Origin: an uncultured Bacteroidia bacterium
Lineage (GTDB): Bacteria; Bacteroidota; Bacteroidia; Bacteroidales; UBA932
NCBI GenBank assembly: GCA_902780455.1
Contig: CACZFO010000006.1
Coordinates: forward strand, 1 to 64,000
DNA: 64,000 nucleotides
Direction: 5' to 3'
Of the stretch, positions 39,885 to 59,723 are shown piece after piece. Under the pieces are notes generated by a model. It ran no database searches, was not told the origin of the DNA, and saw only the letters and a program-made list of their open reading frames with translations. Each line of letters begins with the position of its first letter. Position 1 is the first letter of the stretch. The position numbers were made by a program, and so were the translations under genes.

Positions 39885-40820
39885 ATGGATTGGTGGCATG
39901 GTTTGATCCTGGGTCTGGTGCAGGGTATTGCGGAATTTCTTCCGATAAGCAGCAGCGGACATCTGACAATTATGCAGGAAACTTTGGGTATAAGCGGACA
40001 AGGCAACCTTGCCTTTGACATCGCCGTTCACGTGGCAACGGTGCTCAGTACCCTGGTTATTTTCTGGAAGCCTGTTTTCAGTTTGGGAAAAGGTCTGTTT
40101 GCCAAAGGCATGAATCGCGAAAAGGATTATATCCTCAAGATTCTGGTTTCTATGATTCCTATCCTGATAGTGGGGCTTTTCTTCAAGGATTGGATTGAGA
40201 GGATTTTTGATACGGGAAGGATAGCCCGCCATACCGGAAATCCCTTGCTGGTGGTTGGTATCTGCCTGATAGTTACGGCAGTACTTCTCCTTATCAGCGA
40301 AATAATCTCTGCTGTCAGGGACCTCAAGAAGGGTAAGGACGGAGAGGACAAGGAACAGAAGCTGGCCGACAGGATGGCCGTGGATGACAACATGACGGGA
40401 GCTGAGAAGAGGAAGGTTTTCTCCCTCCAGAACGGAATCAACTACTGGCAGTCTTTCCTTGTTGGAGTGGCCCAGAGCTTTGCTGTTCTTCCGGGTCTTT
40501 CACGTTCCGGCTCCACAATAGCTACGGGACTGATGGCCAAGGTCAGAAGGGTTTCCCTGGCGCAGTTCGTCTTCATCATGGTGATAGTTCCTATCCTTGG
40601 CGAAGCCTTCCTGGAACTGATCAAGATGTTAAAGGGTGATGACATGAGCACCTTCATGAACGTTCCGGTGCTGTGCGGATTCATTGCGGCTTTCGTTTCA
40701 GGACTTTTTGCCTGCACTTTCATGGTGAAGCTTCTGAAGAAGTTCCGTCTGTGGGGTTTTGCAGTCTATTGTTTCATAGTCGGCGTGCTCTGCATCGTTC
40801 TCCCGTACGCAATAAGGTAG
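39885..40820 (+). CDS. uppP: Undecaprenyl-diphosphatase UppP
   Basis: A 311-residue integral membrane phosphatase that recycles undecaprenyl diphosphate for wall and surface glycan synthesis. The active-site motifs are LVQGIAEFLPISSSGHL (residues 10-26) and LPGLSRSGSTIATGLM (about 204-219). It is about 40 residues longer than E. coli UppP because of a charged cytoplasmic insertion (KKGKDGEDKEQKLADRMAVD), a feature of Bacteroidota members. It follows DUF3098 by three bases and abuts lpxH, so these envelope genes are co-transcribed. Confidence 0.95.
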   Translation: MDWWHGLILGLVQGIAEFLPISSSGHLTIMQETLGISGQGNLAFDIAVHVATVLSTLVIFWKPVFSLGKGLFAKGMNREKDYILKILVSMIPILIVGLFFKDWIERIFDTGRIARHTGNPLLVVGICLIVTAVLLLISEIISAVRDLKKGKDGEDKEQKLADRMAVDDNMTGAEKRKVFSLQNGINYWQSFLVGVAQSFAVLPGLSRSGSTIATGLMAKVRRVSLAQFVFIMVIVPILGEAFLELIKMLKGDDMSTFMNVPVLCGFIAAFVSGLFACTFMVKLLKKFRLWGFAVYCFIVGVLCIVLPYAIR

Positions 40821-41594
40821 ATGGCCCTGTATTATTTCATAGCAGATACTCATCTTGGCCTGGATTACAAAGACCCACGCTCAAGGGAGAGGGCCTTTGC
40901 TTCTTTCCTGAAGAATCTTCCCGAAGATACCGCCCGGGTTTTCCTTCTGGGGGATATCTTCGATTTCTGGTATGAATACAAGAACGTGATACCGCGCGGC
41001 TTCACCCGTACCCTTGGAGCATTGGCGGAGTTGGTTGACCGGGGAGTGAAGGTCAGTTTCATGAACGGCAACCACGACATCTGGACCTACAGCTATCTCC
41101 AGAACGAAATAGGGGTGGAAATCCTCAAGCAGCCTTTTGTGGTGGAGATAGAAGGCCAGAGATTCTGCCTGGGGCATGGAGATGCACTGTGGGACAACAC
41201 CCCTTCCTACAGCTTCCTGCAATCCATCTTCAAGTGCCGTTTCATCCAGATATTGTTCAGCGCCATCCATCCGCGCTGGGCTTTCCTGCTGGGCCACAGC
41301 TGGAGCAAGCACAACCGCCTTACCAGATACAAGGGCGAGAATGACGAGTCTCAGAAGGTTTATCGCGATAAAATAATGAAGGAAAGCGTGGAGTGGGCTG
41401 CCAGGTACCAATCTGAAAATGCATCAGAGGGCAGGATAGACCATTTCATTTTCGGGCATTTCCACATGCCTTTCACCAGGGAGGTGGAGGGTGGCGGAGA
41501 CCTTTCCATCCTCGGCGACTGGATCCATAACCCGGATTATCTGGTGTTTGACGGAAAGACCCTGGAGCGCAGGCAGTTTTCCGGCACCGTATAG
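40821..41594 (+). CDS. lpxH: UDP-2,3-diacylglucosamine diphosphatase-like phosphoesterase
   Basis: A 257-residue metallophosphoesterase of the LpxH group. Metal ligands occur in FIADTHLGLDY, LGDIFDFWYEY, MNGNHDIW, CLGHGDALW and FGHFHMPF, the complete calcineurin-like set. LpxH hydrolyses UDP-2,3-diacylglucosamine to lipid X in lipid A biosynthesis at the inner membrane face. The SFMNGNHDIWTY and GDALWDNTPSY blocks are of the LpxH type rather than the general phosphatase type. It begins directly after the uppP stop codon. Confidence 0.9.
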   Translation: MALYYFIADTHLGLDYKDPRSRERAFASFLKNLPEDTARVFLLGDIFDFWYEYKNVIPRGFTRTLGALAELVDRGVKVSFMNGNHDIWTYSYLQNEIGVEILKQPFVVEIEGQRFCLGHGDALWDNTPSYSFLQSIFKCRFIQILFSAIHPRWAFLLGHSWSKHNRLTRYKGENDESQKVYRDKIMKESVEWAARYQSENASEGRIDHFIFGHFHMPFTREVEGGGDLSILGDWIHNPDYLVFDGKTLERRQFSGTV

Positions 41595-41597
41595 CAT

Positions 41598-42365
41598 CTA
41601 TTCATTGAACATGGAGTAGTAGAGGTAGTCGAACGATCCCGCGTTGTAGAGCAGGATGAGGTCTTCTACCATGCGGTCTTCTCCGTATCTGTCATAGGGT
41701 TTCTTGAGGTCGTTCCCAAAGACTTTTGCCACCGTCTGCCAGAATCCTGCAGAGAGTTTGCCCCTGTACTCCCTGATTATGTAGAACGAGGTTCTTCCCA
41801 TTTCCCTGTCGATGAGCTTGAGGAGCAGTTTGCCCTGGCTGATGGTCATCTTCCTCAGGGGCTTTTCAAATTGCTTGAAGAGTTTTTTCTGGTAATCGGA
41901 AATGTACTTCTCCCTTTCGCGGTCGCTGAAGTCGTTTACGGCAAGTACGCTGTCGGCCTCATGTATGATGGCCTTGGCTTCAAGTGCATAAGGATAGGTT
42001 TTCTTGAAATTGTAGACCAGCCTGCGGTACTGCCTCCAGGACTTGCGGCTGCGGTTCCCCTTCATCCTGGCAAACTTGAAGACGGCAGGCAGCTGGCTCA
42101 CGAATACCGTATCTCCCTCTACTATCTGGTAGGTCATCAGGTAATAGGTTCCGGAGGGTCTTGCCTTCTGCTTCTCCATTTCCAGCTTCATGGCCCTTTC
42201 CTCCCTTTTCTTGATGCGCCTTTGTATGGCCCTGCGGTCTTCCAGGGTCTTCTGGATGTCTGATTTCTTTTCAGGCATCTGCCAGACATCCTGGGCACGC
42301 GAAACCGTATCCGGCAGGAGGGCCAGAAAAACAACCATCAGAAATATGCCTGGAAGCTTTTTCAC
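41598..42365 (-). CDS. DUF4294 protein, secreted
   Basis: A 255-residue protein with signal peptide MKKLPGIFLMVVFLALLPDT and cleavage after SRAQ. The mature part is helical and very basic (KRIKKREERAMKLEMEKQK; KGNRSRKSWRQYRRLVYNFK) and matches DUF4294, including FKKTYPYALEAKAIIHEADS, GKLLLKLIDREMG and VAKVFGNDLKKPYD. Function is unknown. It is convergent with lpxH with a gap of three bases. A TTTG-N18-TATCTTTG promoter at 42399-42370 on the minus strand would give an almost leaderless mRNA. Confidence 0.85.
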   Translation of the reverse strand: MKKLPGIFLMVVFLALLPDTVSRAQDVWQMPEKKSDIQKTLEDRRAIQRRIKKREERAMKLEMEKQKARPSGTYYLMTYQIVEGDTVFVSQLPAVFKFARMKGNRSRKSWRQYRRLVYNFKKTYPYALEAKAIIHEADSVLAVNDFSDREREKYISDYQKKLFKQFEKPLRKMTISQGKLLLKLIDREMGRTSFYIIREYRGKLSAGFWQTVAKVFGNDLKKPYDRYGEDRMVEDLILLYNAGSFDYLYYSMFNE

Positions 42366-42444: not shown

Positions 42445-43845
42445 ATGAATGATTTCTTTCATTTTCAGGGGTTCACTCCCTGGGTATTCCTGGTTGACAT
42501 GGGGTTGCTTTTCGGCCTCATGCTCATTGGTAAGTTCATTAGGGTAAAGGTCAAGGTTGTACAGCAGCTTTTCATTCCACCAAGCCTTCTGGCAGGCCTT
42601 CTGGGCCTGGCTCTCGGACCTCACGGTCTTGGCTGGCTGCCGTTTTCCGGAAATCTGGGCTCGTATGCTGCAGTGCTCATAGCCCTGGTTTTCTCCACCC
42701 TGCCTTTCTCTTCACAGAAGACATCAGTCAAGGAAGTTATTACCAGGGTAGGCCCGATGTGGGTGTACGCCCAGATAGGCATGCTCCTCCAATGGGGCAT
42801 CATGGGACTTCTCGGAATCTACCTGTTCAAGACAATATGGCCGGACCTCAACCAGGCTTTCGGAGCCATGCTTCCTACCGGCTTTTACGGAGGCCACGGA
42901 ACGGCTGCTGCCATAGGAAGCGCCTTTGAGAACCTGGGCGGAGGCCTCAAGTGGGAAGACGCAATGACACTGGGAATGACTACGGCCACTGTCGGTGTGG
43001 TGATGGCCATAGTATTCGGTCTGTTCATCATCAAATGGGGCGCCCGCAAGAAGCACACTTCTTTCATCGCCGATTTCAAGGACCTTCCGCCTGAGCTCCG
43101 CAGCGGTCTGCTGCCAAAGGGCAAGAGGTTTTCACTGGGAGAGTCCACGACATCTTCCATCTCCATAGAGCATCTTACCTTCCACTTTGCCATCGTGTTT
43201 TTCGTGGCTTTCCTCGGGTACGTCATGAGCGTTGCCGTAAAGAACTGGTGCAGCGGTCTGGAGGCACCGTACAACGGTCTGGAGCTTCCGGTTTTCTCCT
43301 GCGCCTTCGTGGCCGGCCTGATCCTCAAGAAGCTGTTCGATGTTTTCAAGGTTTCAGACTACATTTCACGCGAAACTGTCCAGAGAGAAGGAAGTTTCTT
43401 CACAGACCTGCTCGTTACATGCGGCGTGGCTTCCATAAAACTCGGGGTTGTGGTCAAGTACTGGCTGCCGCTGCTGGTTCTCGTGCTTGTGGGAGTGCTG
43501 GTGGTATTCCTGATAACGTTCTATTTCGGCCGCAGACTCAGTCCGAGTTACTGGTTTGAGCGTTCTATATTCGCCTGGGGCTGGTGGACCGGTACCATGG
43601 CAATGGGAATCGCCCTGGAGAGAATCGTCGATCCTCAGATGAAGAGCAAGACCATGGACGATTACGCCCTTGCATACCTTCCGATAGCTCCGGTGGAGAT
43701 TCTGCTCATAACCATGGTTCCTATTGCATTTTCAGCAGGATGGGGCGGGCTTCTGATGTGGATATGTTTGATATTCAGTGCATTGCTGCTTATACTCGCC
43801 TTCGGAATGAAATGGTGGCACCCTCTTAAGAAACAAAAAGCTTAA
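42445..43845 (+). CDS. gltS: Sodium/glutamate symporter (GltS/ESS family)
   Basis: A 466-residue membrane protein with about 12 helices. ESS-family features: the FIPPSLLAGLLGLALGPHGLG block (residues about 45-65), the first re-entrant loop with LPTGFYGGHGTAAAIGSA (about 133-150), and a second repeat (FFTDLLVTCGVASIKLG). It imports glutamate with Na+. It lies six bases before the M19 dipeptidase gene, so uptake of glutamate and release of amino acids from dipeptides may be co-expressed. Slightly longer than E. coli GltS (401) owing to the loop around residues 200-230. Confidence 0.88.
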   Translation: MNDFFHFQGFTPWVFLVDMGLLFGLMLIGKFIRVKVKVVQQLFIPPSLLAGLLGLALGPHGLGWLPFSGNLGSYAAVLIALVFSTLPFSSQKTSVKEVITRVGPMWVYAQIGMLLQWGIMGLLGIYLFKTIWPDLNQAFGAMLPTGFYGGHGTAAAIGSAFENLGGGLKWEDAMTLGMTTATVGVVMAIVFGLFIIKWGARKKHTSFIADFKDLPPELRSGLLPKGKRFSLGESTTSSISIEHLTFHFAIVFFVAFLGYVMSVAVKNWCSGLEAPYNGLELPVFSCAFVAGLILKKLFDVFKVSDYISRETVQREGSFFTDLLVTCGVASIKLGVVVKYWLPLLVLVLVGVLVVFLITFYFGRRLSPSYWFERSIFAWGWWTGTMAMGIALERIVDPQMKSKTMDDYALAYLPIAPVEILLITMVPIAFSAGWGGLLMWICLIFSALLLILAFGMKWWHPLKKQKA

Positions 43846-43851
43846 TTATAT

Positions 43852-45006
43852 ATGATCAGAAGATTACTTTGGCTAGTGCTGACCGCACATCTGGCGGTTC
43901 TTGGATTTGCACAGGATCACTGTGGCAACTGTTCCAAACATGGAAAGAAAATGACTGAGCAGCAGTATATGGCTCTTGCGGACAGTATCCACAAGGTTGC
44001 CATTTCATTTGACACCCATGTTGACACTCCGACCTACTCCCTGCATCCGGAGGGTCACTACACCGTAGCCAAGGGCCAGGTAAGCTTTGACCTCATGCGA
44101 AAGGGCGGCCAGGACGGGGCATTCTTTGCCATCTACCTTGACCAGGGCCCTTGGCAGAACCAGAAGTCCCTGGATTCGGCCTACAACTGGTGCCACGACG
44201 AGATCCAGAGCTGGAAAGACTATGTTGAGAACAACCACAGCCATGAGGCCGGAATCGCCTACTCCACTGACGATGTCTACCGTCTCAAGAAAGAAGGCAA
44301 GAGGATAGTGGTCCTCTGCATTGAGAACGGCTATCCGGTCCGCACGCTTGAAGACCTGGACGAGTTCTACAAGATGGGCGTCAAATACATCACCCTCTCC
44401 CACAACACGCCAAACCAGATCTGCGACGGCTCAAGATACATCAACACCTATTACTGGTATCCTAATACCGGCCACGGCCTTTCTCCGTTCGGCTACAAGG
44501 TGGTGGAAAGGATGCAGCAGCTCGGCATAATGGTGGACGTTTCACACATCTCTTCAGAATCGCTTGTCGATGTGCTCAAGGTAATCAAAGCCCCTGTGCT
44601 GGCTTCCCATTCATCCTGCAAGGCCCTCAAACCTTCCCAGACCAGGAACCTCACCGATGACGAAATCCGCGCCATAGCGGCCGTTGACGGCGTAATCCAG
44701 GTTGGAACCGGAAGGTTCTTCCTCAGCGACGACCTTCCTTACTACAAAGTAGGCATAGCAGTGCTGGCAAACCACATTGACCACATCAAGAACCTTGTAG
44801 GTTACCGCCATGTTGGCTTGGGAACCGACTTTGACGGCGGAGGCGGAATTGTCGGACTGGACAATTCATCGCAGATGAAGAATCTCACCGTGGAGCTTCT
44901 CAAGAGAGGCTGGACGGCCGATGAACTCATAGCCTTCTGGGGAGGAAACCTCCTGCGCGTCTGGAAAGCCTGCGAGGACTACGCCGCCAAGTTCAAGAAT
45001 CTTTAG
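43852..45006 (+). CDS. M19 membrane dipeptidase, secreted
   Basis: A 384-residue renal-dipeptidase-family metalloenzyme. The signal peptide is MIRRLLWLVLTAHLAVLGFAQ. The zinc ligands are in SFDTHVDTPTY (HxD), LCIENGYPV (Glu), DVSHIS (His) and LASHSSCKAL (His), and GLGTDFDGGGG supplies the further Asp. It hydrolyses dipeptides, including D-amino acid containing ones, outside the cytosol. It is encoded after gltS. Downstream the genome switches to the rplP ribosomal unit after a 398-base gap. Confidence 0.92.
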   Translation: MIRRLLWLVLTAHLAVLGFAQDHCGNCSKHGKKMTEQQYMALADSIHKVAISFDTHVDTPTYSLHPEGHYTVAKGQVSFDLMRKGGQDGAFFAIYLDQGPWQNQKSLDSAYNWCHDEIQSWKDYVENNHSHEAGIAYSTDDVYRLKKEGKRIVVLCIENGYPVRTLEDLDEFYKMGVKYITLSHNTPNQICDGSRYINTYYWYPNTGHGLSPFGYKVVERMQQLGIMVDVSHISSESLVDVLKVIKAPVLASHSSCKALKPSQTRNLTDDEIRAIAAVDGVIQVGTGRFFLSDDLPYYKVGIAVLANHIDHIKNLVGYRHVGLGTDFDGGGGIVGLDNSSQMKNLTVELLKRGWTADELIAFWGGNLLRVWKACEDYAAKFKNL

Positions 45007-45306
45007 AGCCGGATCTTTACTTGTAACCTACGTTCGGTTAATATATAGCGCCAAACATTTTTCCACTCCGGCTTTCAACCGAAGGTCAGTTTTTTTGAAC
45101 CAGTTTCTGTCATGAGATGTTGGATAGAACCAATTACGCCTTAGGTCTGGACCGACAAATAAATCTCCCAAAACGACAAATTTGTCGTCCCAGAAATCTA
45201 AAAGCTGAGCGTTGGTGATATCTTTCAAATTTGTAAATCGCTGAGATTGCTGGTTTTGACTATCAAAAAATTTTAGCCAAAACCTTGAAAAATTTTCTGA
45301 AAAATA

Positions 45307-45337
45307 TTTGCATATTCAGATATTTGTTTTACCTTTG
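45307..45337 (+). promoter_or_regulatory. Promoter of the rplP ribosomal protein unit
   Basis: TTTG (45307-45310), a 19-base spacer, and TACCTTTG (45330-45337): a full match to the Bacteroidota consensus. Transcription would start near 45344, just at the 5' edge of the leader hairpin. The rplP unit therefore has its own promoter and does not depend on read-through. Confidence 0.8.
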
Positions 45338-45344
45338 CGTCCCG

Positions 45345-45373
45345 ACATTTTGGTTCCGTTACAGCCAAAATGT
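45345..45373 (+). promoter_or_regulatory. Leader hairpin before rplP
   Basis: ACATTTTGG (45345-45353) and CCAAAATGT (45365-45373) are perfect reverse complements with an 11-base loop TTCCGTTACAG. The hairpin begins at the predicted 5' end of the mRNA and lies 31 bases before rplP. There is no T tract, so it is not a terminator. A role as mRNA-stabilising 5' stem or ribosomal-protein binding site is possible. Confidence 0.6.
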
Positions 45374-45404
45374 TGAGAATTAACGAGATAAAGCAATTTT
45401 AGCT

Positions 45405-45827
45405 ATGTTACAACCAAAGAAAACCAAATTCAGAAGAATGCAGAAGGGCCGTATGAAAGGACAGGCCCATAGAGGAACTCAGCTTGCGTTCGGCTCTTTC
45501 GGAATCAAGACCCTTGAGTCTTGCTGGATGACAGGTCAGCAGATAGAGGCAGCACGTCAGGCAGTGGTCCGTTATATGAAGCGTGAAGGATATGTTTGGA
45601 TCCGTATTTTCCCTGACAAGCCATTCACAAAGAAACCTGCAGAAGTACGTATGGGTAAGGGTAAGGGTAATCCTGAGGGATTCGTTGCTCCTGTAACCCC
45701 TGGTAGAATGCTTATAGAGGTAGAGGGTGTTCCTATGGAAGTTGCCAAGGAGGCTCTCAGACTTGGAGCTCAGAAACTTCCTGTTACTACAAAGTTTGTA
45801 GTCAGAAGAGATTATGTTAAACAGTAA
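45405..45827 (+). CDS. rplP: Ribosomal protein L16
   Basis: 140 residues, full length, beginning [19 protein letters not shown] as in all L16. The [20 protein letters not shown] region and [10 protein letters not shown] block are conserved. L16 binds 23S rRNA near the A and P sites and is needed for the peptidyl-transferase centre. It is the first gene of this unit, whereas in most bacteria rpsC comes directly before it; rpsJ through rpsC are not in this window. Codons are highly biased, as expected for a ribosomal gene. Confidence 0.98.
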
Positions 45828-55452: not shown

Positions 55453-55917
55453 ATGAGACACAATAAAGCAGTCAATCATCTTGGACGTAAGAGCGCTCAC
55501 CGCAAAGCTACCCTCGCATCTCTCGCAACAGCTCTCATCCTCCACAAGAGGATTGAAACCACTGTAGCCAAGGCAAAGGCGCTGAAGCCTTATGTAGAGC
55601 CGCTTATCACCAAGTCTAAGGAAGACACAACCCACAATCGTCGCGTCGTGTTCAGCTATCTCAAGAATAAATACGCCGTGACCGAGCTCTTCCGTGAGAT
55701 CGCTCCGAAGATCGCTGACCGTCCGGGCGGATACCTCCGTATCCTCCACACCGGATTCCGTCAGGGTGATGCTTCCGAGATGGCTCTCATAGAGTTTGTT
55801 GACTTCAATGAGGCAGCTCTTGCATCCGCTCCCAAGGAGGCTAAGAAGACCACTCGCCGCAGCCGCGCCAAGAAGGCAGAGGCTCCGAAAGCTGAAGAAG
55901 CTCCCGCAGCGGAATAA
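55453..55917 (+). CDS. rplQ: Ribosomal protein L17
   Basis: 154 residues. [40 protein letters not shown] and [20 protein letters not shown] are diagnostic. The C-terminal tail is longer than in E. coli and rich in Lys, Ala and Glu ([15 protein letters not shown]), common in this phylum. It is the last gene of the ribosomal unit; a terminator follows within 20 bases. Confidence 0.97.
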
Positions 55918-56052: not shown

Positions 56053-56193
56053 ATGTTTTTTACAGATATTAAGAAATCTTATTCCGTTCCGGAGACAAGG
56101 GTGGTCCTTCTCTTTACGGATGTTTCTTTCCTCCAGAGCGTGGGAGGCGTAATCGATGATTGGGGGGATGATTCAGGAGAAATCAATTTCTAG
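56053..56193 (+). CDS. 46-residue acidic peptide gene
   Basis: A 46-codon frame: MFFTDIKKSYSVPETRVVLL, then a middle of FTDVSFLQSV and the acidic end VIDDWGDDSGEINF. It resembles the very short peptides encoded before fimbrillin-like lipoproteins in Bacteroidales, with a hydrophobic centre and a terminal W-G-D-D-x-G-E-I-x-F motif; the resemblance is from memory, not a search. There is no signal peptide. Its stop is two bases before a possible start of the next gene (56195), so the two are co-expressed. Function unknown. Confidence 0.6.
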   Translation: MFFTDIKKSYSVPETRVVLLFTDVSFLQSVGGVIDDWGDDSGEINF

Positions 56194-56218
56194 GATGTCA
56201 GACCAAAAACGAATGAAA

Positions 56219-58054
56219 ATGAAAAGAAGATTATACATTCCGGGTCTGGCAATTGCGATACTGACCCTCGTGCAGTGCTCCGTCGAAGAACAGGAAGCTC
56301 TCATTCCTTCACAAAATTCTGAAATTCCTTTTGAGGTAATAGCAGCAGGCGTTGATACAAAAACTGTCAATGAAGGCAAGTCCACAGTTTGGGAAGTCGG
56401 TGATGCTTTCAGCCTCTTCCATAAGGCTCGCAGGACTACAAAATTTATTTCAGACGGTAGTTTTACTATTGACGATGCTTCTACCGGACATGCAAAAGGT
56501 TCCCTTGGCCAGGAACTGACCGAGTCCTTGTTTGACTGGTTCGCGATTTATCCCGCTTATTCTGACGCTGCTGATCCTGCGGCCATGGATAATGTCGTTG
56601 TCGGATCAAAGGCGGGCGAGGCACAGGCTCAGGCAGGCTACGGCAGCATGGCACATATTGCCGGAAGCAATTATCCTGTCATTGGAAAAGTCGAAAGTGT
56701 TAAATCAACAGAGGTTCCGAGCCTTAAATTTGCCCATGCTACCGCTCTTGCCGCTATCAAGGTGACAAACAATCTTGACGAGGAAGTTACAATCACTTCT
56801 GCGACGCTCAAGGCTCCTGAAAGTATTGTCGGTCTCTTTGATGTGGATATTACATCAAGTCCGGCGACATTCAAGGCCGTTGAAGGATCGGTTTCATCAG
56901 AGGCATCGGTTTCAGTATCTGACGGAACTGCTCTTGCAAAAGGAGGAAGCGCAGTGGTCTATTTGGGATTCAAGCCATTCAAGGCAGCCTCAGGTAGCAC
57001 GATTTCGTTAATTATCTCAGTGTCAAATGCTTCCGGGAAGATATGGTCTCAGACAAAGACCGTTACTCTTTCTGCAGAGACCTCTTTCGAGGCAGGCAAG
57101 ATCAAGACTCTCAACTTCGGTTTCGACGAGCCTTCATCTCAGGAACAGCTTGAGACTCTATACGTTTTCAAACGTACGGATACAATGGTAGGTGGCAAGC
57201 AGTATGTGCTGATTTCTACTTCCAACGATATTTTCTATATTGCAAAACCTGTATCGGAAGGAGTTGATTCTGAGATTATTCTGACGGAAGAGGTTACCGA
57301 TTACGACGGTGAAGTCAGACTGAAGACTATGGATAATGCCTTCATGTTTGCCCTCAGCAGCGGAGGATATACTATCCAGCAGTCTGATGGCAGGTATCTT
57401 TACCACAGCGGCACCGGAGCAAGTACTTCTGCAAAGTCGACACTCTCAAGCGAAGAAGGCATTTGGTCCGTAAGTATCAGTTCTTCTTCGTCAAAAGCTG
57501 CAATAGCTTATTCAGATTCTTTCAAATACGGCCTCAATACGTTCTCTTCCGGAATGAAGTTCACTCTTGCAACGAGCCAAAGCTCGTCTAAGCAGCCTTA
57601 TCTTTATGAGTATATAGGGACTACAGATGGCCCTGCAGAGCCGGATGATACAGAGGAGTTCCTCGCGACATATGCTTATGGAGTCTACTCTTATCAGGGC
57701 TCCACATGGCAGTACTCCGAAGGCGCGGGAGAGCTGGATTGGAAGTTCAGCGGCCAGAAAGTGAGATTCCGTATCCTTGAGCCTGCAAACCATTCATATA
57801 CAGAAGTTTCCGGAGTCCCGGCAAGTGTTGCTGTAGGCGATGTTGTGAGTGTCGGGCTTGTCCGTTATGAGAATGAGGCTATCCTTAAGTCCGATACTCT
57901 CGAGGCGACTGTCCTGAAAGTTGAAGACGGGGATGTATGGATGAGGACCTATACTTTCAATAGCTCTTCTATCCATCCAGATGGTATTCGCTATCCCTGC
58001 GAAGCCGGGAAAATTTGCTTACAAGCAGCCGGACGGTTCTGTCGTAATGGTTGA
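56219..58054 (+). CDS. Fimbrillin-like lipoprotein, 3' end overlapping M6 protease
   Basis: About 611 residues from ATG 56219 (MKRRLYIPGLAIAILTLVQC); earlier in-frame ATGs exist at 56195 and 56213. The lipobox LVQC is poor but usable. Residues to about 310 show the fimbrillin/Mfa-like layout: VNEGKSTVWEVGDAFSLF, then FDWFAIYPAY, a FAHATALAAIKVTNN block and KIKTLNFGF. A Ser-rich region and a further strand-rich domain follow. The last 25 residues (PDGIRYPCEAGKICLQAAGR) are an out-of-frame reading of the M6 protease start, so the natural C-terminus is lost or the two genes were joined by a frameshift. Confidence 0.7.
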   Translation: MKRRLYIPGLAIAILTLVQCSVEEQEALIPSQNSEIPFEVIAAGVDTKTVNEGKSTVWEVGDAFSLFHKARRTTKFISDGSFTIDDASTGHAKGSLGQELTESLFDWFAIYPAYSDAADPAAMDNVVVGSKAGEAQAQAGYGSMAHIAGSNYPVIGKVESVKSTEVPSLKFAHATALAAIKVTNNLDEEVTITSATLKAPESIVGLFDVDITSSPATFKAVEGSVSSEASVSVSDGTALAKGGSAVVYLGFKPFKAASGSTISLIISVSNASGKIWSQTKTVTLSAETSFEAGKIKTLNFGFDEPSSQEQLETLYVFKRTDTMVGGKQYVLISTSNDIFYIAKPVSEGVDSEIILTEEVTDYDGEVRLKTMDNAFMFALSSGGYTIQQSDGRYLYHSGTGASTSAKSTLSSEEGIWSVSISSSSSKAAIAYSDSFKYGLNTFSSGMKFTLATSQSSSKQPYLYEYIGTTDGPAEPDDTEEFLATYAYGVYSYQGSTWQYSEGAGELDWKFSGQKVRFRILEPANHSYTEVSGVPASVAVGDVVSVGLVRYENEAILKSDTLEATVLKVEDGDVWMRTYTFNSSSIHPDGIRYPCEAGKICLQAAGRFCRNG

Positions 58055-59723
58055 AAACCATGGTGACGAACATGGCCACTGGATGACCAATGAGGCCGGT
58101 GAGGCAGTTAAACTAGGGAAAGACGGATTTCTGAAGAGGATGGATGCTTCGGAGCTCGCATCAATTTTCGATAATGCCGTAAAGACTCGTTCGGAAGCTG
58201 AAGAGAATCGCATCGCAAGAGCCTCAGTTACCACCGGCTCAATAAAGGTTCCGGTTATCCTTATCGAGATGCAGGATAGGCATTTTACCATTGACAATCC
58301 GGTTTCGGCTTTCAATAATCTTTTGAACAAGGAGGGTTATTCAGCAAATGGAGCGACCGGTTCCGTCCGTGACTTTTATAGCGACAACTCCAACGGTCAG
58401 TTTATCCCTGAATTCGAAGTATATGGTCCCATTGAGGTTTCTGATTCTTCCGCATACTATGCCGGTTCTTCAGGAACGGACAAGGCTGATATAGCTTTCA
58501 GGGAAGCTTGCAAATTACTTGATTCCGTGATTGATTTCAGCAAGTACGACAGTGACGGCGATGGTTATGTGGACATGATCCTCTTCTATTATGCCGGTTA
58601 CAATCAGGCAGAAGGCGTCGGAACATACAATAAAGACTGTATCTGGCCGCATGAGTCACATCTCTATGCCGGTCCTTATGACGGCAAATATATCGATCGT
58701 TATTCTTGTACTTCCGAGCTCAAGGGCTATACAGGGTCGAATATGTGCGGAATCGGTACAGCTTGTCATGAACTTGGTCATGCTCTCGGGCTTCCTGATC
58801 TTTACGATACGAATTATGCGCAGAATGGAGAGGCTGGTGGTCTATACAATTTCTCCACCATGTGCAGCGGCTCATACAACAATGACGGAAGGACTCCTCC
58901 TTTCTTCAATATTGAAGAGAGGATTTTCCTTGGCTGGAACACAGCAGACGATATTGAAGAAATTACTACTGGGGGTACATATTCTCTTCCTGCTTTCAAT
59001 GTGGGTTCCCACAAGGCATATAAGACTGCTACGACTACTTCAAACGAGTATTTCCTTTACGAGTGCCGTGGAGCCAATAGCTGGGATACTGCTATAGGGG
59101 CTGCCGGAATGGTAGTGTATCATGTTGACAAGTCGACCAGGAACGTGAAAATCGATTATCGCAACGTCCGCGCATCCAATCTTTGGAGCAACTGGGAAGC
59201 ATATAACGGAATCAATAAAAATGGTTCGCACCCTTGTTTCTACATTGTCCCGGCCACAGATCAGGAGAACCTTAACTACACCGGCTATACGAGCAGAATG
59301 GTTTTCCCTGGTACAGGTTCCAACAGGGTGACTGAATTCCAGGCTGTTGATTGGGAAGGGGAGAAATCGGATTTTGTTCTCTCTGAGATTAAGTACTCTT
59401 CGAGGACAGCGACATTCAAGGTCGATGTATCCGGAATGGAGGACACAGCGACATTCAAGGTCGATGTATCCGGAATGGAGGACGTAGGATTCAACTATAT
59501 TTACAATCCTGGAAAGGGGACTTATTCTGCAGGTACAAAACTGCCTCTCATTCTAGTTGAGACCGAATCTGAGGCTCCTTCTTCCGTTACATGGTATTAT
59601 GATGGCACCAAGACCACGAGTTCAGAGGTCTTATTGACTTCAGGCAGTCATTCAATAGTCGCCGAGCTTACTTATTCGGACGGTTCGACCGGCAGAATCA
59701 AACTTGTCATAACAGTAAACTAA
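57981..59723 (+). CDS. M6-family metalloprotease, no signal peptide
   Basis: 580 residues. The start MVFAIPAKPGKFAYKQPDGS is the mature N-terminus of M6 (immune inhibitor A-like) proteases, which normally follows a signal peptide; here none precedes it, and 74 bases overlap the lipoprotein gene in another frame. The zinc site is HELGHALGLPDLYD with catalytic Glu. Blocks SVRDFYSDNSNGQF, DSDGDGYVDM (calcium-type), and IWPHESHLY are normal. A 39-base perfect tandem repeat gives TATFKVDVSGMED twice near the C-terminus. Secretion is uncertain unless a +1 frameshift links it to the lipoprotein. Confidence 0.8.
   Translation: MVFAIPAKPGKFAYKQPDGSVVMVENHGDEHGHWMTNEAGEAVKLGKDGFLKRMDASELASIFDNAVKTRSEAEENRIARASVTTGSIKVPVILIEMQDRHFTIDNPVSAFNNLLNKEGYSANGATGSVRDFYSDNSNGQFIPEFEVYGPIEVSDSSAYYAGSSGTDKADIAFREACKLLDSVIDFSKYDSDGDGYVDMILFYYAGYNQAEGVGTYNKDCIWPHESHLYAGPYDGKYIDRYSCTSELKGYTGSNMCGIGTACHELGHALGLPDLYDTNYAQNGEAGGLYNFSTMCSGSYNNDGRTPPFFNIEERIFLGWNTADDIEEITTGGTYSLPAFNVGSHKAYKTATTTSNEYFLYECRGANSWDTAIGAAGMVVYHVDKSTRNVKIDYRNVRASNLWSNWEAYNGINKNGSHPCFYIVPATDQENLNYTGYTSRMVFPGTGSNRVTEFQAVDWEGEKSDFVLSEIKYSSRTATFKVDVSGMEDTATFKVDVSGMEDVGFNYIYNPGKGTYSAGTKLPLILVETESEAPSSVTWYYDGTKTTSSEVLLTSGSHSIVAELTYSDGSTGRIKLVITVN
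59406..59483 (+). repeat. Perfect 39-bp tandem duplication in the M6 protease gene
   Basis: Two identical adjacent copies (59406-59444 and 59445-59483) encode the 13 residues TATFKVDVSGMED twice in frame. No mismatch separates them, pointing to a recent duplication or slippage event in the linker between the catalytic part and the C-terminal beta domain. Confidence 0.95.

Follow-up and report, generated by a model that had tools for sequence, protein, structure and literature searches.

The window, by which we mean the whole 64 kb stretch of DNA analysed here, carries the ribosomal protein gene rplP behind a dipeptidase gene, and rplP is followed by the spc-alpha genes in their usual order up to rplQ, which ends at 55917. 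The features of the locus, with coordinates in the window, are as follows.

39885-40820, + strand: uppP (Pfam BacA), part of the conserved neighbourhood joined by rplP in the split clade
40821-41594, + strand: lpxH-like metallophosphoesterase gene (Pfam Metallophos), same rplP-upstream neighbourhood
41598-42365, - strand: DUF4294 gene (Pfam DUF4294), same rplP-upstream neighbourhood
42445-45006, + strand: sodium/glutamate symporter-family gene and M19 dipeptidase gene, between the DUF4294 gene and rplP (PF03616, PF01244)
45007-45404, + strand: intergenic gap of 398 bases with the predicted new rplP promoter and leader
45070-45087, + strand: terminator-like hairpin with a T run, after the dipeptidase gene (weakly supported: 2 found against 0.5 expected in shuffles)
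45307-45337, + strand: putative rplP promoter, TTTG-N19-TACCTTTG, motif conserved in split relatives
45338-45404, + strand: predicted 5′ leader of the rplP mRNA, with a covarying hairpin at 45343-45375 and its loop CCGTTAC at 45356-45362
45405-45827, + strand: rplP (L16), head of the detached spc-alpha piece (PF00252, E 2e-51), single copy in the genome
45842-55917, + strand: rpmC rpsQ rplN rplX rplE rpsN rpsH rplF rplR rpsE rpmD rplO secY map infA rpmJ rpsM rpsK rpsD rpoA rplQ (from ORFs and sequence, genes named by reading)

The rplP locus and the three pieces of the ribosomal cluster

The str-S10-spc-alpha cluster encodes about half of the ribosomal proteins and is normally found in one piece; the S10-spc cluster is among the best-kept bacterial gene orders, and its linkage is usually explained by a need for co-regulation. 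The original prediction placed rplP behind an M19 dipeptidase gene, after a 398-base gap and with a perfect promoter of its own, and this description holds: the dipeptidase ORF (PF01244) ends at 45006, rplP (PF00252) starts at 45405, and TTTGCATATTCAGATATTTGTTTTACCTTTG at 45307-45337 is the sole match to TTTG-N19-TAnnTTTG on both strands of the 64 kb, where 0.21 would be expected. The order uppP-lpxH-DUF4294 upstream of rplP is common to most genera in which the cluster is split, as judged from the neighbourhood tables. The symporter and M19 dipeptidase genes precede rplP in most members of the window's genus and are variable elsewhere.

Two further observations concern the window itself. Upstream of the rplP promoter, the gap contains a palindromic stem of 14 pairs (45165-45196, GACGACAAATTTGTCGT), which may serve as a site for a regulator or, on the opposite strand, as a terminator. 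At 56156-59723, an N-terminal ORF of lipoprotein-like type (56156-58054) overlaps a Peptidase_M6 ORF in another frame (57981-59723); the two may belong to a single gene, frameshifted near 57980-58050.

The genome of the window is a MAG of 1.92 Mb in 78 contigs, 97% complete, with a single rplP (45405-45827) and a single rpsC, the latter on a different contig (C7). There rpsC lies mid-contig, closing the block rplC-rplD-rplW-rplB-rpsS-rplV-rpsC, and is followed by a small lipoprotein gene and then by two glycosidase-like genes; rplC is preceded by a SIMPL-domain gene and not by rpsJ. The rpsJ gene was found on a further contig (C1) behind rpsL-rpsG-fusA. As rplP, rpsC and rpsJ are thus single-copy genes on three contigs, the str-S10-spc-alpha cluster is in three pieces and not in two: both the rpsC-rplP and the rpsJ-rplC adjacencies of the canonical cluster are absent, and the order inside each piece is kept. 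At locus L299 (6479-6552), a tRNA gene lies directly 3′ of rpsJ, where the rpsL-rpsG-fusA-rpsJ piece ends.

Distribution of the split in the family and the order

The cluster had been claimed to be interrupted between rpsC and rplP by a genuine rearrangement and not by faulty assembly; what follows rpsC elsewhere in the genome was to be the check, and rpsC joined to rplP in close relatives the counter-evidence. The claim stands on both counts, since the sole rpsC of the genome, on its other contig, is followed by the lipoprotein gene and not by rplP, and the close relatives are split as well, with no case of rpsC-rplP adjacency among members of the window's genus in which both genes were detected. 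What the original prediction had missed is the second break, between rpsJ and rplC, and the sharing of the arrangement by a whole clade.

Among 105 genomes of the family with both genes (the family being GTDB UBA932, as judged from its named members), the two are adjacent in 26, apart on one contig in 12, at distances from 11 kb to 454 kb, and on different contigs in 67, a category that taken alone is weak evidence because most split genomes are draft MAGs. In total 79 genomes are split and 26 joined; the case for the split rests on genomes in a single contig, on genes that lie well inside their contigs and on foreign neighbours that are conserved. In the single-contig genome G025, for instance, rpsC lies at 422,543 on the minus strand and rplP at 864,578 on the plus strand, 442 kb apart. 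Each genus of the family is uniform: g185, g186, g187, g197, g198 and g201 are joined, and all others are split. Egerieousia and Coprenecus have been assigned to the Bacteroidales family UBA932 (PMC8035907), and current GTDB names may differ.

Outside the family, rpsC and rplP share one contig in 89 of 91 genomes of the order, counted over genomes found in both gene listings among the matches listed, and the two exceptions among them are fragmented assemblies. In the named relatives that the tree places outside the split clade, rplP comes immediately after rpsC. In another Bacteroidales MAG (L153, 8472-9371; CANSAP010000003.1), a gene for a secreted Sel1-repeat-like protein, named by eye, interrupts the spc operon between rplP and rpmC.

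Promoter motifs and structured leaders at the new operon heads

The consensus for the primary sigma factor of Bacteroidetes is TTTG at -33 and TAnnTTTG at -7 (PMC7366714). The full motif was found at most 300 bases before rplP in 85 of 87 distinct split sequences, and in the remaining two the -7 box is present and the -33 box imperfect; after shuffling, 0.6% of the split sequences carry it. The joined sequences, about 70 in number, gave two matches before rplP, at -225 and -274, both inside the rpsC coding sequence; a third sequence, labelled as joined (L284), belongs to a genome in which the cluster is split and rpsC lies 19 kb off. An internal promoter that predated the split was also considered, and none was found between rpsC and rplP in the approximately 70 joined sequences.

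The same holds for the other head. The motif precedes rplC in all of the split loci that could be used, 31 in number, and in some of them its -33 box is shortened (L119 and L283, where rplC is cut off, were left out), against 2 of 50 joined loci, both of them from Rikenella. In these Rikenella loci (L130, 2003-3900; L123, 3247-3937) the rpsJ-rplC gap is enlarged, to about 1.6 kb in L130, with the genes still in order and the full motif before rplC. Both boxes of the Bacteroidetes primary-sigma promoter, at the right spacing, are conserved in the relatives, and the promoters at the two new heads probably drive separate transcripts.

Behind the rplP promoter, the predicted leader of the window folds better than all 200 of its shuffles (z -3.4). 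Its hairpin at 45343-45375 has the loop CCGTTAC, which does not vary among the 15 sequences aligned from the window's genus, and 8 of its 13 stem pairs show changes on both sides, giving a covariation score reached by 0 of 500 shuffles; these pairs were counted on an ungapped subset in one register. In total, 87.7% of the cells of the stem pair, against 28-42% for slid controls. RNAalifold, applied to a sequence-only alignment in which the stems are shifted, recovered only 4 pairs. A covariance model gave a single match in each of 12 members of the window's genus, always at rplP, along with a weak match at rplP of one neighbouring genus and another weak match in the joined genome G349 (E 0.004), the last of these probably due to chance. 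A different loop is present in one genus member (G001). The longer rplP leaders of the genera g4, g195 and g199 (122-130 nt; L318, L288 and similar loci) have near the rplP start codon a conserved inverted repeat around CGTTAAAC, which differs from the element of the window's genus.

The rplC leader bears a second element, AGYYGUA-H-CCA...UGG-CNA-UGCRRYU, in nearly all members of the window's genus for which the region is available; it is absent in G037 and altered in G031. With its two arms joined by an artificial linker for the counting of pairs, all cells were paired, the internal loop was conserved and three pairs were changed on both sides. The rplC leaders of other genera are shorter and less elaborate, so these structures arose after the split. 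More generally, since the leaders are recognisable only in the window's genus (that of rplP weakly in one more), they are younger than the split and were not needed at once.

Both leaders show the conserved RNA structure with covariation that would be expected of an autoregulatory leader ahead of ribosomal protein genes, and a conserved loop on a covarying stem is the pattern usual for a binding site. We infer that the two leaders are feedback sites for a protein of the respective operon. Mimicry of rRNA sites (S8-type and others) by the leaders was examined by eye and was not established.

Ribosomal leaders of S4 (rpsD) and of L13 have been described in Bacteroidia (PMC7247131), and the present leaders resemble them as covariation-supported structures 5′ of ribosomal protein genes. 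They differ from the motifs tabulated there, none of which precedes rplP and the sole rplC-led one of which is archaeal (Archaeoglobi), and neither the rplP nor the rplC leader has a match in a search of Rfam 15. That one genus, after the family-wide breakup, evolved two autoregulatory leaders (rplP and rplC) in replacement of a lost common control is a tentative proposal, to which we give somewhat less than even odds.

A simpler alternative, and in our estimate an equally credible one, is that the leaders are plain 5′ stability hairpins, or result from discriminator effects at strong promoters, and that no ribosomal protein binds them. Many leaders of the family begin with CANCCC and have some hairpin, including those of genera that lack the covarying element, and the leaders have neither a known ligand nor an Rfam match. 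Against this alternative stand the invariant rplP loop CCGTTAC on its covarying stem and, in the rplC element, a conserved internal loop together with 100% pairing and compensatory changes.

Origin of the arrangement and its significance

The split was inherited from a single common ancestor of most genera of the family. In a FastTree phylogeny of 12 spc-cluster proteins, all split genomes fall into one clade with a support of 0.999, and the joined genera of the family branch elsewhere; in a separate tree of the rplC-rpsC block the split loci again form one clade (0.996), adjoining joined genera of the same family. Two trees with the split genomes in one clade indicate one ancestral change, vertically inherited, and the position of the block beside joined genera of its own family gives no sign of horizontal replacement. 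None of the split loci has an intact rpsJ-rplC junction, and all joined loci that reach far enough to show it do, so that the rpsJ/rplC and rpsC/rplP junctions are always broken together. Several split genera share the neighbourhood ftsX-DUF3098-uppP-lpxH-DUF4294 before rplP, and several have a beta-lactamase-family gene, aroC and aroA behind rpsC. Joined relatives have ftsX-DUF3098-uppP without lpxH, DUF4294 or rplP, and aroC elsewhere. A simple two-breakpoint inversion was rejected, as uppP/lpxH and aroC are not adjacent in joined relatives, and for the same reason no ancestral junction can be reconstructed.

How the cut was made can be pictured in another way: the rpsC/rplP break may have begun as a gene insertion that later grew, rather than as a block transposition, with g2 and g182 keeping the early state. 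In four genomes of these two genera the genes are indeed on the same strand and in the same order, with 11.2, 13.3, 18.8 and 21.9 kb between them, and in all four g4 genomes with both genes on one contig and in G344 rplP lies downstream on the same strand at 137-275 kb. We regard this course as less likely than not, since g2 does not branch early within the split clade, the halves lie on opposite strands in some other genomes, the uppP segment between them is inverted in G407, and the halves may also have come together again later. The spacing of 11-22 kb on one strand in g2 and g182 may be either a remnant of the first state or a product of re-approach.

Far less probable is a cluster that split several times, separately in different genera. 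The genes next to rplP and rpsC do differ between some split genera, but the split genomes are monophyletic in both trees, the identical two junctions are broken every time, and the ftsX-DUF3098-uppP-lpxH-DUF4294-rplP and rpsC-beta-lactamase-aroC-aroA neighbourhoods recur across genera. Loss of the rplC-rpsC block followed by its horizontal reacquisition would fit the movement of all seven genes as one unit, yet the tree of the block places the split loci beside joined genera of the same family, and there is one rpsC per genome, so that we consider it very improbable. A misjoined contig or binning error between the dipeptidase gene and rplP, conceivable in a MAG of 78 contigs, can be practically dismissed: the DUF4294(-GltS-M19)-rplP junction recurs in many independent assemblies, rpsC lies mid-contig with other neighbours in many of them, the split is visible in the single-contig genomes G025, G245 and G400, and a promoter with its own leader stands exactly at the junction.

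Taken together, the data favour one ancestral double cut, vertical inheritance, new promoters and leaders acting as cis-regulatory sites, a reading that we consider correct with a probability of about 0.88. On this reading the str-S10-spc-alpha cluster was cut at rpsJ/rplC and at rpsC/rplP in the ancestor shared by most genera of the family, such that rplC-rplD-rplW-rplB-rpsS-rplV-rpsC and rplP...rplQ became separate operons, with rplP ending up behind the uppP-lpxH-DUF4294 neighbourhood, and the arrangement was then passed on vertically. Each new head would be served by a Bacteroidetes-type primary-sigma promoter, whose motif is conserved and whose activity is predicted from it. In the window's genus the leaders would most likely be cis-regulatory sites, bound by a ribosomal protein encoded in the same operon, and such control may restore balanced synthesis after the cutting of the operon. 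The original prediction also held that the split would change the co-regulation of half of the ribosomal proteins, which is plausible given promoters and leaders at both heads.

In B. thetaiotaomicron the ribosomal operon BT_2700-BT_2731 was reported among the longest transcripts (PMC7366714). Compared with this canonical Bacteroidales cluster, the genes, their order in each piece and the type of promoter are the same, but here there are three pieces with three heads instead of one long operon. Breakups of the cluster are a known kind of event in other phyla; one study counted 115 rearrangements, 65% of them separating whole operons (PMC8046335). In the present case, by contrast, the cuts fall inside the classical S10 operon, one behind rpsJ and one at the rpsC/rplP boundary, and most genera of one family in another phylum have kept this state. 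We found no description of the split in this Bacteroidales lineage in the open-licence literature. What is new is its extent, the double cut and the new operon heads, the breakup as such being already known.

Because breakups are known from other phyla, the split alone is of moderate interest. A large natural clade of gut bacteria of the Bacteroidales with a doubly cut cluster, alongside joined sister genera, offers a comparison of what the linkage is for, and each cut, with its conserved new promoter and, in one genus, structured leaders, bears on how new feedback control arises. If the proposed role of the leaders is true, this would be a natural experiment in the re-evolution of ribosomal protein feedback regulation.
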